Shown piece by piece: positions 6,479 through 18,647 of a DNA stretch of 22,450 bases. Within the stretch, counting starts at the first letter, position 1; every line of letters starts with the position of its first letter. This DNA is from a virus. The DNA lies in the IMG/VR virus record IMGVR_UViG_3300008114_000624, positions 1 to 22,450 of that record; one strand, written 5' to 3'. The position numbers and the translations under genes were made by a program. A model generated the notes under the pieces. That model did not search any database. It was not told the origin of the DNA and worked only from the letters and a program-made list of their open reading frames with translations.

Positions 6479-6669
6479 TGATATTAGAGCTTCCATATCC
6501 ACCCTCAGTCAATACATATTGGAGAGCAAATGGCAAAAGAAGATTCATATCGAAAGAAGGCGTATTATTCAAGACAGCAGTCCAAGCCATCTGCTTTAGA
6601 GACAAAGTGGGATCTTTTGGCGATGCTCGCCTTTCTGTTAATATTTATATTCATCCTAGATGGAACTAA
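6478..6669 (+). CDS. RusA-like Holliday junction resolvase, truncated
   Basis: A 63-residue frame that begins like RusA-family crossover junction nucleases: LELPYPPSVNTYWRANGKRR at residues 3-22, an ISKEG segment, a helix with FKTAVQAICF, then RLSVNIYIHP. Full family members are about 120 residues and carry their catalytic Asp residues after this point, in a region that continues with an Arg-rich, Asp-Asn-containing helix. Here the frame stops at WN right after IHPR, so all catalytic Asp residues are missing and the next gene starts within the same bases. The product is presumably inactive in cutting Holliday junctions. Start ATG overlaps the previous stop (TAATG). Confidence 0.65.
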   Translation: MILELPYPPSVNTYWRANGKRRFISKEGVLFKTAVQAICFRDKVGSFGDARLSVNIYIHPRWN

Positions 6670-11791: not shown

Positions 11792-13372
11792 ATGGCAGAG
11801 ATGATGAGATTATCCGCTGAAGATGTTTTAAAAAGACATGATAAAGCGCTAACAAAAAAAGAAGATTTTAGATCTTTATACGAAGAATGTTATGAGTTTG
11901 CATTGCCACAACGTAATCTTTATGACGGATATTACGAAGGTAAAGTAGGCGGTCAAAAGAAAATGAATCGTGTGTTTGATTCTACAGCCATTAATTCTAC
12001 ACAACGCTTTGCTAATCGTATGCAATCTGGCATATTCCCACCACAACGTAAGTGGTGCAGACTTGAACCAGGACCAGATATTCCTGAAGATCGCAAAGAA
12101 GAAGCACAAGCAGCATTAGATATTTACTCAGATAAACTATTTGCATCATTAAAGCAATCAAACTTTGATATTGCTATTGGTGAGTTCTTGCTTGATCTAT
12201 CTGTAGGTACTGCTGTGATGATGGTACAACCAGGTGATGACATTAATCCACTTAACTTCATTCCTGTGCCACAATTCTTAGTATCATTTGAAGAAGGTGC
12301 TAATGGTCAAGTAGACAATGTATATAGACGTATGCGCCTTAAAGGCGAGTCTATTATGCGTCAATGGCCAGATGCAGTTATTCCAGATGACTTACAAAAG
12401 AAGATTGACCAAAAGCCAACAGACGATTTAGAATTTATTGAAGCTACTATCTTAGATCAAAAGCGTGGTGATTTTTGTTATCACGTTATTCATAAAGAAT
12501 CTAAAACAGAGTTAGTTTATAGACGTATGGTAGAAAGCCCATGGATTGTATCACGCTATGCAAAAGTAGCTGGTGAGATTTATGGTCGTGGTCCATTAAT
12601 TACTGCATTGCCAGACATCAAGACGCTCAATAAAACATTAGAACTATTACTTAAAAATGCATCATTAGCTATTGCTGGTGTATATACCGCAGCAGATGAT
12701 GGCGTATTAAATCCTAACACAGTGAAGATTATACCTGGCGCTATTATTCCTGTTGCAAGGAATGGCGGTCCACAAGGTGAATCATTGAAACCATTGCCAA
12801 GAGCTGGTGACTTTAATGTATCTCAAATCATTATGAATGATTTACGCATGAGCATTAAGCGTATTTTATTAGATGAGTCTTTACCACCAGACAACATGTC
12901 AGCACGTTCAGCTACGGAAGTGGTAGAGCGAATGAAAGAGTTATCACAAAATCTAGGATCAGCTTTTGGCAGACTGATTAATGAAACTATGATACCATTA
13001 GTTACTAAGATTTTAAGAGTAATGGATGAGCGCGGTCTTATTGATCTACCTCTTAAAGTCAATGGTCTTGAAATTAAAGTGTCAGCAGTTGCACCATTAG
13101 CTATGGCTCAAAGCATGGAAGATGTACAGAACGTATTGCAGTTTGCACAAATTGTTCAAGGTGCTGGACCACAAGCTCAGATGACATTGAAAACAGATGC
13201 TATGATGGACTTCATTGCTGAGAAGTTAGGTATCCCACAAAAGATACGTAACACTCAAGAAGAACGTATGATGATGACTCAACAAATGGCTGAAGCTGCA
13301 CAACAAGTAGCTCAACAAAATCCAGAAGCAGTACCTGGTATGGTAGAAGCTGCAACTAAGGGGATGATGTAA
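11792..13372 (+). CDS. Portal protein (head-to-tail connector)
   Basis: A 526-residue protein of the T7-like head-to-tail connector family, which forms the 12-subunit ring through which DNA is packaged and leaves. Typical features: LYEECYEFALPQRNLYDG near residues 28-45, VFDSTAINSTQRFANRMQSG near 61-80, FPPQRKWCRLEPGP following it, a central beta-rich wing (80-300), LLLKNASLAIAG near 285-296, and a helical C-terminal crown ending in Gln/Met-rich ERMMMTQQMAEAAQQ. Length fits complete members (about 500-540). Its stop overlaps the next start as TAATG. Confidence 0.92.
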   Translation: MAEMMRLSAEDVLKRHDKALTKKEDFRSLYEECYEFALPQRNLYDGYYEGKVGGQKKMNRVFDSTAINSTQRFANRMQSGIFPPQRKWCRLEPGPDIPEDRKEEAQAALDIYSDKLFASLKQSNFDIAIGEFLLDLSVGTAVMMVQPGDDINPLNFIPVPQFLVSFEEGANGQVDNVYRRMRLKGESIMRQWPDAVIPDDLQKKIDQKPTDDLEFIEATILDQKRGDFCYHVIHKESKTELVYRRMVESPWIVSRYAKVAGEIYGRGPLITALPDIKTLNKTLELLLKNASLAIAGVYTAADDGVLNPNTVKIIPGAIIPVARNGGPQGESLKPLPRAGDFNVSQIIMNDLRMSIKRILLDESLPPDNMSARSATEVVERMKELSQNLGSAFGRLINETMIPLVTKILRVMDERGLIDLPLKVNGLEIKVSAVAPLAMAQSMEDVQNVLQFAQIVQGAGPQAQMTLKTDAMMDFIAEKLGIPQKIRNTQEERMMMTQQMAEAAQQVAQQNPEAVPGMVEAATKGMM

Positions 13373-13635
13373 TGGCTGGATGGGAAGATTTAGATCAAGC
13401 ACTTCCGTTAGATGTAAGAGATGTAGCACAAGCAAGAGAAGATTTAGATAGATTAGCATTAAGAGTTTTTGGTAGTGATGACGGACAAAAGTTATTAGCA
13501 TGGTTACGTCAAACAGTTTTAGAGCAACCAGTTGCTTTGCCTGGTAGCGACTCAAGTTATGCGTACTATCGTGAAGGTCAAAATAGTATTGTGAGAGATA
13601 TTGAAGCAAAGTTAATTAGAGCAAGGAAAATGTAA
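13372..13635 (+). CDS. Bbp19-family small phage protein (87 aa)
   Basis: An 87-residue protein resembling Bordetella phage BPP-1 Bbp19 and its relatives: a helical start with REDLDRLALRVFGSDDGQKL, then LAWLRQTVLEQPVALPGSD, and YAYYREGQNSIVRDIEAKL, the family's conserved ReGqn helix. It stands between portal and scaffold and is assumed to assist head or tail assembly; its role is not established. It is coupled at both ends by TAATG start-stop overlaps. Confidence 0.75.
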   Translation: MAGWEDLDQALPLDVRDVAQAREDLDRLALRVFGSDDGQKLLAWLRQTVLEQPVALPGSDSSYAYYREGQNSIVRDIEAKLIRARKM

Positions 13636-14426
13636 TGATAGACGACAACATCGAGCCTAGTGGTAATGAGGAAGCATCTCAAGAAACTGGCCTACTCGAC
13701 AGTGCATCAGTTGAAACAGAAGCAGTAGAATCAAATCCGCAAAAAACAGAAATATCACATCTTGAAGCATCAGATGAAGATGATGATAGTCCTTTAGAAC
13801 GACCCGATTGGTGGCCAGAGAATTTCTGGAAAAAAGATGAAGCAGAGCCAGACTTACAGGCTATGGCTAAATCTTGGGGCGATCTAAGAAAACAAATCTC
13901 ACAAGGCAAACATAAGGCACCAGCAGATGGTAACTATGATGTAGCCGCATTTAAAGATATTCCAGCAGAAGATCCCGTACGAAATCACGTACTATCTTGG
14001 GCTAAAGAATATGGTGTAAGTCAAGCAGCTTTAGATACTTTAGTGGGTAAAGTTGTTGAGATGGGATTTGAAGCTAATCAAACTAGCTCTGTTAATTTAG
14101 CAGAAGAAAAGAAAGCACTTGGTCCTAATGCCGATGCCCGTATTAATGGCATGGTTAAGTGGGCTAGTGGTTTAGTTAATAAAGGTATTTGGGGTAAAGA
14201 TGACTTTGAGGAGTTTAAATACATGGGTGGTACTGCAAAAGGTATCGCTGCATTAGAGAAACTTCGTGGTGCTTATGAAGGTCGTGTACCTACAGATAGC
14301 GCTCCAGTTCAAGGCGCTGTATCCAAAGAAGAACTCTACGCTATGGTCGGAGATCCTAAGTATCAAACAGATCCTGGCTTTAGAAAGAAAGTAGAAAGAA
14401 TGTTTGAATCTAATTTTGGTTCATAG
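13635..14426 (+). CDS. Scaffold (capsid assembly) protein
   Basis: A 263-residue acidic, low-complexity protein with no aromatic-rich core at the start (many Glu, Ser, Asp up to residue 55), a conserved RPDWWPENFWKKDEAEPDL at 57-75, MAKSWGDLRKQISQGKHKAP near 77-96, and helical AKEYGVSQAALDTLVGKVV segments. The layout and position between connector and capsid match phage scaffolds, which build the prohead and are then released. The basic C-terminus (FRKKVERMFE) would bind the capsid. A strong terminator follows the gene. Confidence 0.8.
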   Translation: MIDDNIEPSGNEEASQETGLLDSASVETEAVESNPQKTEISHLEASDEDDDSPLERPDWWPENFWKKDEAEPDLQAMAKSWGDLRKQISQGKHKAPADGNYDVAAFKDIPAEDPVRNHVLSWAKEYGVSQAALDTLVGKVVEMGFEANQTSSVNLAEEKKALGPNADARINGMVKWASGLVNKGIWGKDDFEEFKYMGGTAKGIAALEKLRGAYEGRVPTDSAPVQGAVSKEELYAMVGDPKYQTDPGFRKKVERMFESNFGS

Positions 14427-14448
14427 TAAGACTCCGTAGTTCGCGTTT

Positions 14449-14473
14449 GACCCACTTCGGTGGGTCTTTTTTT
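14449..14473 (+). terminator. Strong intrinsic terminator after the scaffold gene
   Basis: GACCCAC (14449-14455), UUCG tetraloop (14456-14459), GTGGGTC (14460-14466), then seven T (14467-14473). This is a textbook intrinsic terminator and ends or reduces the packaging/portal/scaffold transcript before the capsid gene. Confidence 0.9.
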
Positions 14474-14491
14474 GCCTAAAACGCAAAATAC

Positions 14492-14520
14492 TTGCACAAA
14501 TTTGTAAAATATGCTAAAAA
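14492..14520 (+). promoter_or_regulatory. Possible capsid promoter
   Basis: TTGCAC (14492-14497; four of six) and TAAAAA (14515-14520; four of six), 17 bases apart. It directly follows a strong terminator, so a promoter is expected here for capsid expression. The -10 match is weak. Confidence 0.35.
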
Positions 14521-14630
14521 CCATACAAGGCTAATTGCATTCGCAACCCTTCACACAAGTCGTCTTGTCGTTTGGCTATCGTAAATAGCAAGCACTGGCC
14601 CAGGTTTTGTCTGGCTAACCAAAGCGATAA
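14521..14630 (+). other. Capsid leader with several small hairpins
   Basis: Between the terminator and the open capsid frame lie stem-loops TTGC/GCAA (14535-14546), ACAAG/CTTGT (14555-14568) and CCAG/CTGG (14600-14614). No ribosome binding site and no ATG connected in frame to the capsid sequence are present. It ends in TAA (14628-14630), in frame with the capsid. Confidence 0.4.
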
Positions 14631-15389
14631 ACTTTATTTTTATCAATCGGTGTTGAAGGCTCAGTAGTAAAATTTCCTAAAGTAGGCAGAGGCGTTGCTA
14701 CTTTAAGAATCCCACAAACAGATGTATCACCATTGAATGCTGGCTGGAGTCAAGTAACTGCTACTTTAGCAGACTGGAATGCAGCAGAATATTCTGACAT
14801 CTTTATGCAACAAAAAGTAAACTTTGACGAAAGACAAGAGTTAGTACAATTAGTATCTAACGCTATCGGTCGTAGACAAGATCAAATGATTATTGATGCG
14901 CTTGTAAACTCATCAACATCATTAACAGTGTCTAACGATATCGGTGGTTCAGACACTAACCTAAGCGTAGCAAAACTACGTGAAGCTAAACGTCTATTAG
15001 ACAAAAACAACGTACCACCAGAAGGTCGTCACATTGTTCTTCATGGTAACAGCTTGGCTTCATTACTTTCAGAAACAGCAGTAACTTCTTCTGACTTTAA
15101 TACAGTTAAAGCTCTCGTAGCTGGTGAATTAAATACTTTCTTAGGCTTTACATTCCATTTATTGGGTGATCGCTCAGAAGGTGGTTTACCAATTGATGGT
15201 TCTTTAGATCGTAAAGTTTTTGCTTTCCATAAAGACGCTGTTGGTTACGCAGAAGGTATCGCTCCTCGCACAGAAATCAATTACATTCCAGAAAAAACTT
15301 CATTCCTTGTGAATGCTGTATTCTCTGCGACTGCAACTGCTATCGATGCTGAGGGTATTGTTCAACTCACATGCCGCGAATCAGCATAA
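14631..15389 (+). CDS. Major capsid protein, 5' end missing
   Basis: In frame from 14631 to 15389 (252 codons) runs a phage capsid-like protein: EGSVVKFPKVGRGVATLRI near codons 9-27, then ATLADWNAAEYSDIFMQQ, NFDERQELVQLVSNAIGRRQ, and a beta-rich C-terminal half ending TCRESA. Phages I remember start this protein with 30-40 more residues. Here a stop codon (14628) lies just upstream, no ATG or GTG exists in frame before the conserved part, and the first TTG (14733) lies inside the fold. So the beginning of the gene appears deleted. As the main head subunit it would be essential, which makes this striking. Confidence 0.7.
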   Translation, partial: TLFLSIGVEGSVVKFPKVGRGVATLRIPQTDVSPLNAGWSQVTATLADWNAAEYSDIFMQQKVNFDERQELVQLVSNAIGRRQDQMIIDALVNSSTSLTVSNDIGGSDTNLSVAKLREAKRLLDKNNVPPEGRHIVLHGNSLASLLSETAVTSSDFNTVKALVAGELNTFLGFTFHLLGDRSEGGLPIDGSLDRKVFAFHKDAVGYAEGIAPRTEINYIPEKTSFLVNAVFSATATAIDAEGIVQLTCRESA

Positions 15390-15406
15390 TTTAAGGAGAT
15401 TAAAAC

Positions 15407-15682
15407 ATGGCTTATTCATCAACTGGTTTAAACTCTGCTGGCGGTCAATCAAAAGCTGGTAATGCTCCACAAATTTGGACATATACTAGTGCTGATGCAA
15501 TCGCTACAGTAAACACAGCTGCTTACTTTAATGATGCTTCTTCACTTTTAAAAGTGGGCGACATCATTTTTGTTTACGATTCAGCAACTCCTACAATGAG
15601 CATTGTATTTGTATTATCAAATGCATCTGGCGTTGTAGACGTATCTGATGGTTTAACAGTAACAGCAACAGATACAGATTAA
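15407..15682 (+). CDS. Small capsid-decoration-like protein (91 aa)
   Basis: A 91-residue, Thr/Val/Ala-rich, beta-sheet protein that follows the capsid gene in the same orientation, with a strong AAGGAG 8 bases before ATG. It contains an Ala-Thr-Val-Asn repeat region (VNTAAYFNDASSLLKVGDII) and ends VTATDTD, a pattern common in small podovirus proteins after the capsid. It could be a minor head or cement protein. Its tight coupling to the capsid and the terminator-like hairpin behind it suggest a capsid expression unit. Confidence 0.6.
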   Translation: MAYSSTGLNSAGGQSKAGNAPQIWTYTSADAIATVNTAAYFNDASSLLKVGDIIFVYDSATPTMSIVFVLSNASGVVDVSDGLTVTATDTD

Positions 15683-15710
15683 TAGTCTGTATTGCAGTAA
15701 GTAACTTGGG

Positions 15711-15743
15711 TAGGGCGGGTGTTTTGCACTCGCCTTATTCTTA
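15711..15743 (+). terminator. Terminator-like hairpin after the capsid unit
   Basis: Arms 15711-15721 and 15727-15737 pair over 11 positions including two G-U wobbles, with a 5-base loop (TTTTG), followed by TTCTTA (weak T-run). It lies between the decoration gene and tail tubular A, and probably lowers read-through. Confidence 0.65.
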
Positions 15744-15759
15744 CATTTGGAGATAGAGT

Positions 15760-16374
15760 ATGGCAGCTGGAGATTCAGCATTATCAGTTTGTTCTGATTC
15801 ACTATTAATGTTAGGTGCTAAACCTATTGCGTCTTTTACCGAAGGCACAGATGAAGCGTCTATATGCGATAGACTATATCCAGATATTAGAGACCAAGCA
15901 TTATCAACATATCCATGGTCTTTTTCATTTAAGAAAGTTCAATGTGCTAGACTGGTCACTACACCAGTTACCGAATACAAATACGAATATCAACTACCTT
16001 CTGATCGCATAAACTCACCAAGAGCAGTCTATGATGCTAATGAAGTAGGATCTCCTGTACGCAATGCATACAGAATCATGGGAGATAAAGTGCTAACAGA
16101 TTATGAAGAAGTATGGGTAGATTATCAATACTCAGTACCAGAATCATCAATGCCAACATATTTTGTTCAACTGCTTAAATATATACTTGCATGGCATTTA
16201 TCTGTGCCTATTACAGATCAAACAGAAAAGGCTGGATATTGGCAAACTGTTGCTGTAGGTACACCAGGAGAAAATGGTCGTGGTGGCTACATGAGACAAG
16301 CTATGAATATTGATGGCCAAGGACAACCAGTAAACGCAATACAAGACTTCTCATTGATTAATGTGAGATACTAA
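15760..16374 (+). CDS. Tail tubular protein A-like (204 aa)
   Basis: A 204-residue protein with the layout of podovirus tail tubular protein A (T7 gp11-like): an N-terminal helical part with SVCSDSLLMLGAKPI and ICDRLYPDIRDQALSTYPWS, then a beta core with YEYQLPSDRINSP and WVDYQYSVPESSMPTYF, and a helical LLKYILAWHLSVPITDQT. It bridges portal and nozzle. GGAGATAG lies before the ATG at 15760. It is intact, unlike the neighbouring tail gene. The stop overlaps the start of tail tubular B (TAATG). Confidence 0.82.
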   Translation: MAAGDSALSVCSDSLLMLGAKPIASFTEGTDEASICDRLYPDIRDQALSTYPWSFSFKKVQCARLVTTPVTEYKYEYQLPSDRINSPRAVYDANEVGSPVRNAYRIMGDKVLTDYEEVWVDYQYSVPESSMPTYFVQLLKYILAWHLSVPITDQTEKAGYWQTVAVGTPGENGRGGYMRQAMNIDGQGQPVNAIQDFSLINVRY

Positions 16375-17582
16375 TGGCTCGTTTTGTAACCATTCAAACT
16401 AACTTTACTGCGGGTGAAATAGATCCACTATTACGCTCACGTATAGATATTAAATCATATGAGAATGGTTTAGAGACTGCTCAGAATGTATTATGCCAAC
16501 CACAAGGTGGCATTACTAGACGCAGTGGCTTACGTTATATCAATGCATTGCCAAATTCAGGCACAGAATCTGCTGCCAATGGTGTGCGATTAGTAGCTTT
16601 TGAGTTCTCAACATCAGATAGTTATATGCTTGCATTTACACATAATCGTATGCATGTATATAAGAATGGCGCATTAATTACAAACATCAATGGATCTGGC
16701 AATAGTTATCTTGATACATCAGGCGTATCATTATCATCAGCTAGATTAGCTAATATGTGCTGGACACAATCTGCTGACACACTTATTGTTGTACATGAAG
16801 ATTTAGCGCCAATAAAAATTGTACGTGGTGGCACAGACGCTACATGGACTGCATCTGCTATTTCATTTGACAGTATTCCTAAATATGCATTTACATTAAG
16901 CGTATCTAATCCAGCTGGTACATTAACGCCATCAGCTGTATCAGGTAAAGTGACACTTACTGCATCATCATCTGTATTCTCTGCTGGCTCTGTAGGACAA
17001 TATATTAATGTTATTCCGCAAGGCAGAGCTAAGATTGTTCAATATACAAGCGGTACAGTAGTCAATGCTATTACTGAATTTCCATTCTTTAATACATCAG
17101 CTATTGCTAATGGTAATTGGGAATTAGAATCTGGCTACGAAAATGTATGGTCAGCTGGAAAAGGATGGCCTAGAACAGTAACATTCCACCAAGGTCGTTT
17201 ATACTTTGGCGGATCTAAATCAAGACCATCTACAGTATGGGGATCTAAAGTTGGTATTTTCTTTGACTTTGAAGGCACAGAAGGTTTAGATGATGACTCA
17301 GTAGAAGCAACATTAGATACTAATACATTTAATGCGATTACAGATATTATCTCTGGTCGTGATTTAATGATCTTTACAACGGGTGGTGAGTTCTATGTAC
17401 CACAACAAGGCTTAGAGCCAATCACACCTACGTCATTCTTTGTGTCTACTACAGGTCGTGCTGGTAGTAACATATTCAATTATGCGATCACAGAATGTTA
17501 TAGCCCCATCAGAGTTTGTAACTGCGGGTGGCGAGTTTTTAGATGTTGGCGTAGACATTACTACTATTTATGTCGTAGTTAA
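16374..17582 (+). CDS. Tail tubular protein B-like (nozzle), N-terminal fragment (frame-shifted)
   Basis: A 402-residue frame in which the first ~366 residues are the N-terminal part of a podovirus tail nozzle: ARFVTIQTNFTAGEIDPLLR near residues 2-21, the QNVLCQPQGGITRRSGLRYI segment next, and GRLYFGGSKSRPSTVWGSK near 282-300, TTGGEFYVPQQGLEPITPTS near 338-357. After GRAGSN (about 366, position 17473) the protein turns into unrelated Cys/Arg-rich residues to a stop at 17582, while the true continuation is in another frame (next entry). It begins by TAATG coupling to tail tubular A. Confidence 0.7.
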   Translation: MARFVTIQTNFTAGEIDPLLRSRIDIKSYENGLETAQNVLCQPQGGITRRSGLRYINALPNSGTESAANGVRLVAFEFSTSDSYMLAFTHNRMHVYKNGALITNINGSGNSYLDTSGVSLSSARLANMCWTQSADTLIVVHEDLAPIKIVRGGTDATWTASAISFDSIPKYAFTLSVSNPAGTLTPSAVSGKVTLTASSSVFSAGSVGQYINVIPQGRAKIVQYTSGTVVNAITEFPFFNTSAIANGNWELESGYENVWSAGKGWPRTVTFHQGRLYFGGSKSRPSTVWGSKVGIFFDFEGTEGLDDDSVEATLDTNTFNAITDIISGRDLMIFTTGGEFYVPQQGLEPITPTSFFVSTTGRAGSNIFNYAITECYSPIRVCNCGWRVFRCWRRHYYYLCRS

Positions 17583-18138
17583 ACGTACAATTAGTGGTAC
17601 TGCTCAATACTATGTAGAACGATTTGACCATACATTATTAACTGATAGTGCTAAAACAGGTGGTGTAGCATCAACAGTGTCTATGTCTCATGTAATAGGC
17701 AAAGAAGTTAATGTATTATTAGATGGTATTGTACAAGCCAACCAAACAGTTCCTGGAGGTGGTACAGTAACATTTCCTAGGGCATCTGCATCATCTTATG
17801 AGGTAGGATTGCCTATTGTTGTACAAGCAACAACTATGCCAATTGACTTAAAGATACAGTCTGGTACACGATTAGGCTTTAAAAAGCGTATTGTTGAAGT
17901 TAATGCATTAGTCTATGAAACACAGAATATGGTCATTAATGGCATAGAAGTACCATTTAGATCATTTGACACAGCATCAACATTAGATGCTGATGTACCA
18001 GATTATACAGGCACTAAAGTATTACATGGCATTTTAGGGTATAGTAATGAAGCAAAGATTACAATTACTCAAAACGCACCATTGAAATTAACATTATTAG
18101 GTTTAGAATATAAAGTAGGAGTCCATCAAGGAACATAA
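17482..18138 (+). CDS. Tail tubular protein B-like (nozzle), C-terminal fragment
   Basis: From ATG 17482 (frame open from further upstream) the sequence continues the tail nozzle protein: RSQNVIAPSEFVTAGGEF, YVVVKRTISGTAQYYVERFD and further beta-rich stretches. In homologues this part is preceded by a segment ending about A-Y-x-L-L-R-S-Q, which I see as TYSIMRSQ near 17473-17495. A piece of about 90-100 residues between GRAGSN and this point is missing compared to my memory of the family. Without it the nozzle would not fold normally. Confidence 0.65.
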   Translation: MRSQNVIAPSEFVTAGGEFLDVGVDITTIYVVVKRTISGTAQYYVERFDHTLLTDSAKTGGVASTVSMSHVIGKEVNVLLDGIVQANQTVPGGGTVTFPRASASSYEVGLPIVVQATTMPIDLKIQSGTRLGFKKRIVEVNALVYETQNMVINGIEVPFRSFDTASTLDADVPDYTGTKVLHGILGYSNEAKITITQNAPLKLTLLGLEYKVGVHQGT

Positions 18139-18140
18139 TT

Positions 18141-18647
18141 ATGTCAGCAGCCATACCTTTTATTAAAGCAGCAGCTCCATATATATCAGCAGCTAGTTCA
18201 GCGTTTAGTGCGTTTTCAAGCTTTTCTCAAGGGAAAAGCCAACAAGCTATGTATAACCTACAAGCTATGCAGACAAAAGCTGATTCTGCTCGCAAAGCAC
18301 TTCAATACGAAGAAAGAGCTAATGAGACATTGCGTAAAGTTACAGCAGCTAATGCTGCTAATGCATCCCGTAGATATGCTGGCGGTGTATTAGGGCTTGA
18401 AGGATCAGCTAAATTAGTTGAAACAATGAATTTAAAAGAAGCTGGCAGAGACTTTATGGCGGATATTAGCAATGCGTCTAATGCGCTTATGACTGGATCA
18501 ACACAAGCAGATATATTTGGAACAGCTGGAAAAATTGCTGCAAGAGGAGGTTTGCTTGATGCTGCTGGTAAACTTGCCACTGGAGCATATGAATTTAGTA
18601 AAGTTATTATACCAAAAGAAAAAACAGAAGAACCACCTAAGGCTTAA
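18141..18647 (+). CDS. Internal virion protein-like (168 aa)
   Basis: A 168-residue, Ala- and Ser-rich helical protein (AAAPYISAASSAFSAFSSF near residues 10-28; KADSARKALQYEERANETLR near 46-65; NAANASRRYAGGVLGLEGSA near 71-90). It follows tail tubular B and precedes two large helical virion genes, the position of the T7 gp14-like ejection protein. An amphipathic, Ala-rich helix could insert into the host membrane at infection, which is inference. AAGGA lies 9 bases before the ATG. Confidence 0.55.
   Translation: MSAAIPFIKAAAPYISAASSAFSAFSSFSQGKSQQAMYNLQAMQTKADSARKALQYEERANETLRKVTAANAANASRRYAGGVLGLEGSAKLVETMNLKEAGRDFMADISNASNALMTGSTQADIFGTAGKIAARGGLLDAAGKLATGAYEFSKVIIPKEKTEEPPKA

Follow-up and report, generated by a model that had tools for sequence, protein, structure and literature searches.

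The put antiterminator RNA of phage HK022 is a structured, cis-acting element located at the start of the phage transcript, and the same traits are proposed here for a leader RNA that precedes a phage capsid gene. Other phage-carried, structured and cis-acting candidates that resemble this leader are the manA and wcaG RNA motifs of cyanophages (PMC2864571). In the case of the genes themselves, the closest known system is Methylophilales phage MEP301 (MW452941), which shares the head and tail gene order of the window, that is, the whole stretch of 22,450 bases analysed here, which is also the entire IMG/VR record. The capsid protein of MEP301 is 82% identical to that of the window and its gene is intact, unlike the window's, while the main text of the MEP301 genome paper is silent on promoters, terminators and intergenic or noncoding elements. 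The comparison of this locus with its relatives leads to two results: the capsid gene without a start codon most likely reflects a damaged record and holds no biological novelty, and the leader RNA in front of it is the part worth keeping.

As printed in the record, the capsid open reading frame (14631-15389) opens after a TAA stop codon at 14628-14630. Re-reading of this frame agreed with the original prediction that the gene is startless, with neither ATG or GTG nor a Shine-Dalgarno sequence upstream of the first TTG, at 14733. The prediction had also counted 30 conserved-looking codons before that TTG. Genuine capsid codons before the TTG number 28, since capsid homology starts at the codon at 14649 and every relative matches from query residue 4, but the codons before 14648 belong to the leader and are not protein-coding. 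The feature left in the record is a 5'-truncated major capsid protein gene (14649-15389, plus strand), identified by Pfam, PHROG and its relatives, and followed on the same strand by a small gene of unknown function (15407-15682, a match to phrog_18004). Truncated as it is, the protein falls clearly within Pfam family PF19821, Phage_capsid_2 (215 bits against a cut-off of 25), and within PHROG 3437 (major head protein). Because the Pfam match covers profile positions 33-293 of 293 and the PHROG match begins at position 40 of 294, about 35 N-terminal residues are absent. A complete capsid N-terminus with an ATG and a ribosome site is not found in the record; the relatives have both.

Comparison with the relatives L083 and L002 and with other records places a junction at 14647-14648, at which 119 bases are absent, a size that falls within the 100-150 missing bases guessed beforehand. 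Ribosome site, ATG and the opening codons of the capsid gene all lie within the block, and its absence explains both why the gene is startless in the record and why the first 32 positions of the PF19821 profile are gone from the protein. L083, the closest relative fetched, is 99.2-100% identical to the window over 9 kb and has exactly two extra blocks, the one of 119 bases and another of 236 bases at 17470-17471. The alignment is broken at 14647-14648 in all 12 near relatives found by searching with positions 12000-18600 of the window, and the block was not found at any other place in the record. Among 46 records having the same leader 3' end, the ribosome site and ATG are present in 44, including one that is 99-100% identical to the window, with three of these 44 loci stopping within the block. 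The two records without it are L091, whose junction is identical to that of the window, and L129, in which the right edge lies 3 bases further on. L091 is a partly different haplotype and differs from the window elsewhere. An intron or split gene was also considered and is rejected because, in the relatives, this stretch codes for conserved residues of the capsid protein.

Three further junctions were located in the record by comparison with relatives. The 236 bases absent at 17470-17471 split the gene of tail tubular protein B, about 158 bases absent at 6660-6661 truncate RusA, and about 86-87 bases absent at 1795-1797 split a YqaJ-like nuclease gene on the minus strand, which falls into two frames at 1795; this last loss was sized against a relative further removed, which leaves an uncertainty of one base. 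None of the losses of 119, 158 and 236 bases is a multiple of three. The exact comparison gave a junction homology of 0-1 base at 6660, 14647 and 17470, and a repeat-mediated loss is rejected for the junctions that could be measured, the YqaJ junction and one junction of L129 having given no usable exact comparison. The junctions at 17470 and 6660 were sought in viral_contigs, where no second record carries either of them. Two other minus-strand genes were noted in the record. Relative G006 lacks the gene at 659-1255 in the corresponding position; the DNA of this gene gives short matches to Staphylococcus phage methyltransferases, and it has no Pfam match. The gene at 2110-2799 encodes a serine recombinase (Resolvase domain, Pfam).

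A scan counted private losses over 192 non-redundant loci, 1.66 Mb in total. The records grouped as the IMG sample series 33000081xx-82xx contribute 5 sites in 123 kb (4 without the window, which is counted in this series by inference), and the remaining 1,536 kb contribute 2, of which one also occurs in another record and is not private. The capsid junctions failed the size filter of the scan and were found by separate comparison, and they are additional to the 5 sites; L091 and L129, with the identical and the 3-base-shifted capsid junction, both belong to this series. Clean private losses were seen in the same sample batch in L103, at 4327 and 6682, and in L129, at 1612 (75-76, 148 and 196 bases). 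Record 3300008259_000411 (L087, position 7265; the same contig as L011) has a 59-base private difference in the gene 3' of the capsid gene. Relative to L083, tail tubular B has 13 synonymous differences and 1 nonsynonymous difference and the capsid gene has none; the differences being mostly synonymous, the broken genes are without sign of decay.

Three options had been offered for the startless gene, namely a missing piece of sequence, a defective genome and an unusual start codon, and the first is the one supported. The block is in all probability missing through a fault of the record or its assembly, which would mean that the startless capsid gene is not a biological feature, and this reading is favoured because four separate losses occur in one record and such losses cluster in one sample batch. 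Pieces of the assembly would have been joined with nothing left in the gap, producing four clean losses, and the real phage would have an ordinary ATG start for its capsid gene. Runs of N were sought in 90 loci and none was present, so that a stripped gap is not directly visible as the cause.

A real deletion, carried either by a defective variant that persists by co-infection with an intact phage or by a dead genome, is disfavoured and quite improbable. It keeps that small share because L091 has the exact junction: two records that differ elsewhere and have a common junction also fit an inherited deletion, and the junction of L129 is shifted by only 3 bases. Such a deletion does not account well for three further losses in the window and different ones in L103 and L129, all from one sample batch, nor for the lack of decay in the broken genes and of homology at the junctions. 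The use of ATC at 14646 or another non-ATG codon on the printed sequence, for which the frame is indeed open back to 14631, is very unlikely, because the missing block supplies both the ribosome site and the ATG start in intact relatives, and about 35 conserved N-terminal residues would be lost. With the fault in the record or its assembly as the preferred reading, the case serves as a caution: unmarked joins disrupt genes in this record as well as in other records from its sample batch, and such breaks could pass for biology or for defective phages.

Directly 5' of the junction, and left intact by it, lies a conserved structured leader RNA of about 110 nt (14523-14633, plus strand), detected by a covariance model and by covariation. 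The hairpin leader of the original prediction is real and corresponds to this RNA, which has several stems. P1 pairs 14527-30 with 14548-51, P2 pairs 14535-38 with 14543-46, P3 pairs 14556-59 with 14564-67, P4 pairs 14575-79 with 14585-89, P5a pairs 14597-98 with 14619-20, and P5b pairs 14600-03 with 14611-14; the unpaired motifs CAAGC and GCGA are also conserved. The covariance model (R1) gives the window leader 98.6 bits (E 8e-22). In a MAFFT alignment of 40 sequences (A1), read against the predicted structure minus its last two nearly invariant pairs, 91.9% of the cells are paired, versus 72.5% in shuffled and 23-39% in slid controls; because the structure was predicted on this very alignment, the comparison with the slid control is biased towards it. 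Changes on both sides were seen at 13 of the 16 pairs in this alignment. The fifth hairpin, P5b, is misaligned by MAFFT and was counted on anchored sequences, where its two variable positions are 98% paired versus 59% when permuted; in this anchored count P3 was chosen by its pairing and is not independent evidence.

The compensatory changes in the leader thus exceed both the shuffled and the slid controls, as looked for in a conserved structured RNA. The folding energy of single sequences does not fall below that of shuffles, 5 of 6 leaders being no better. A stem closing the 5' and 3' ends in some folds is not kept in all of them, and no covariation was visible by eye between the 3' GCGA and an internal stretch considered as its pairing partner; neither was retained. 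On the strength of the covariation, the leader is very probably a real conserved structure.

The leader is tightly associated with the capsid gene. Model R1 matches all 66 of the sources tried, many of which are its own training sequences, and each of 24 long records has a single significant copy. Distinct leader sequences number 107. In a pattern search, 195 of 210 matches (duplicates included) are followed by a capsid start, the remaining 15 being records that lack the block, contig ends and capsid starts missed by the search expression. In nearly all pattern matches about 60 nt separate the GGCCC of P5 from the capsid ATG. The one match in a scan of bacterial genomes lies in a small contig that ends in the same capsid start. 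L137, a leader-bearing phage contig inside a metagenome-assembled Flavobacteriaceae genome, is probably misbinned. No significant match to the leader was obtained for the more distant capsid genes of Dunaliella virus SI2, a Vibrio phage and pelagiphage HTVC100P; the capsid leader of Dunaliella virus SI2 (L245, 900-990) loosely resembles the RNA core by eye, and the model gives this no support.

The surroundings of the leader suggest where its transcript begins and ends. The upstream capsid assembly gene is closed by an intrinsic terminator (14449-14473, plus strand) with a 7-pair GC-rich stem and a T run; it was called by the scanner at 14449-14466, as the original prediction had expected, and near relatives carry the same one. 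A possible promoter had been claimed as well, and here the outcome is mixed: putative, weak promoter-like hexamers (14492-14520, plus strand) stop 8 nt short of the leader's GGC, but no 9/12 match exists in the window and the scanner made no call in the record, while some relatives have better matches at the aligned place. Relatives of the MEP301 type have 11/12 sigma-70 matches, with a -10 element ending about 7-9 nt before the same GGC, and for this reason the RNA is taken to form the 5' end of the capsid mRNA, where transcription would start. Across all leaders the promoter matches are only modestly above those of shuffles (7.9 vs 6.7 of 12).

No terminator was called between 14467 and 15707, a range in which the missing block itself lies outside the window, and the relatives' version of the block region holds only an A/T-rich linker and the ribosome site. 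A terminator-type riboswitch or attenuator is not supported, as no terminator is called between the leader and the gene. Folding predicts a long hairpin (15708-15740, plus strand) that separates the capsid unit from the tail genes, the first being tail tubular A, and most of the relatives folded have a hairpin at this place with different sequences.

The leader may act in cis from the 5' end to increase the level or the stability of the capsid mRNA, and a role in boosting or protecting this message is tentatively favoured; the long hairpin after the next gene would then mark the 3' side of the capsid unit. An unlikely alternative is antitermination in the manner of HK022 put, in which the RNA would act on the polymerase as the late transcript begins. 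It would suit a leader placed where transcription of a long late operon would begin, with a terminator-like hairpin downstream, but only one copy is present and that hairpin is kept in place in the relatives, for which reason partial termination fits better than read-through. Binding of the capsid protein to its own leader, limiting its synthesis, is rather unlikely: it would explain why this RNA goes strictly with the capsid gene, but the protein is needed in bulk. Whether it serves as a boosting or protecting 5' element or otherwise, the leader could possibly be a new phage RNA class with its own mechanism, involving RNA polymerase, the ribosome or the sensing of capsid protein, in widespread aquatic podovirus-like phages. 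If functional, it would be a cis-acting RNA, so far unlisted, that belongs to the gene whose expression a phage needs most.

The leader is, as judged from the alignments and models, a conserved RNA element new to Rfam and of a known general kind, the structured 5' leader. It has no match at gathering score in Rfam 15, where the best weak scores are far below gathering, and no description of it was found in the part of the literature covered by the search. Compared with the HK022 put RNA, it has more stems, occurs in one copy and precedes a capsid gene. The manA and wcaG motifs are tied to metabolic genes (PMC2864571), unlike the leader, which has no Rfam match to these two families. MEP301 carries the leader RNA at the same place as the window, and as this relative is cultured, the leader is testable there.
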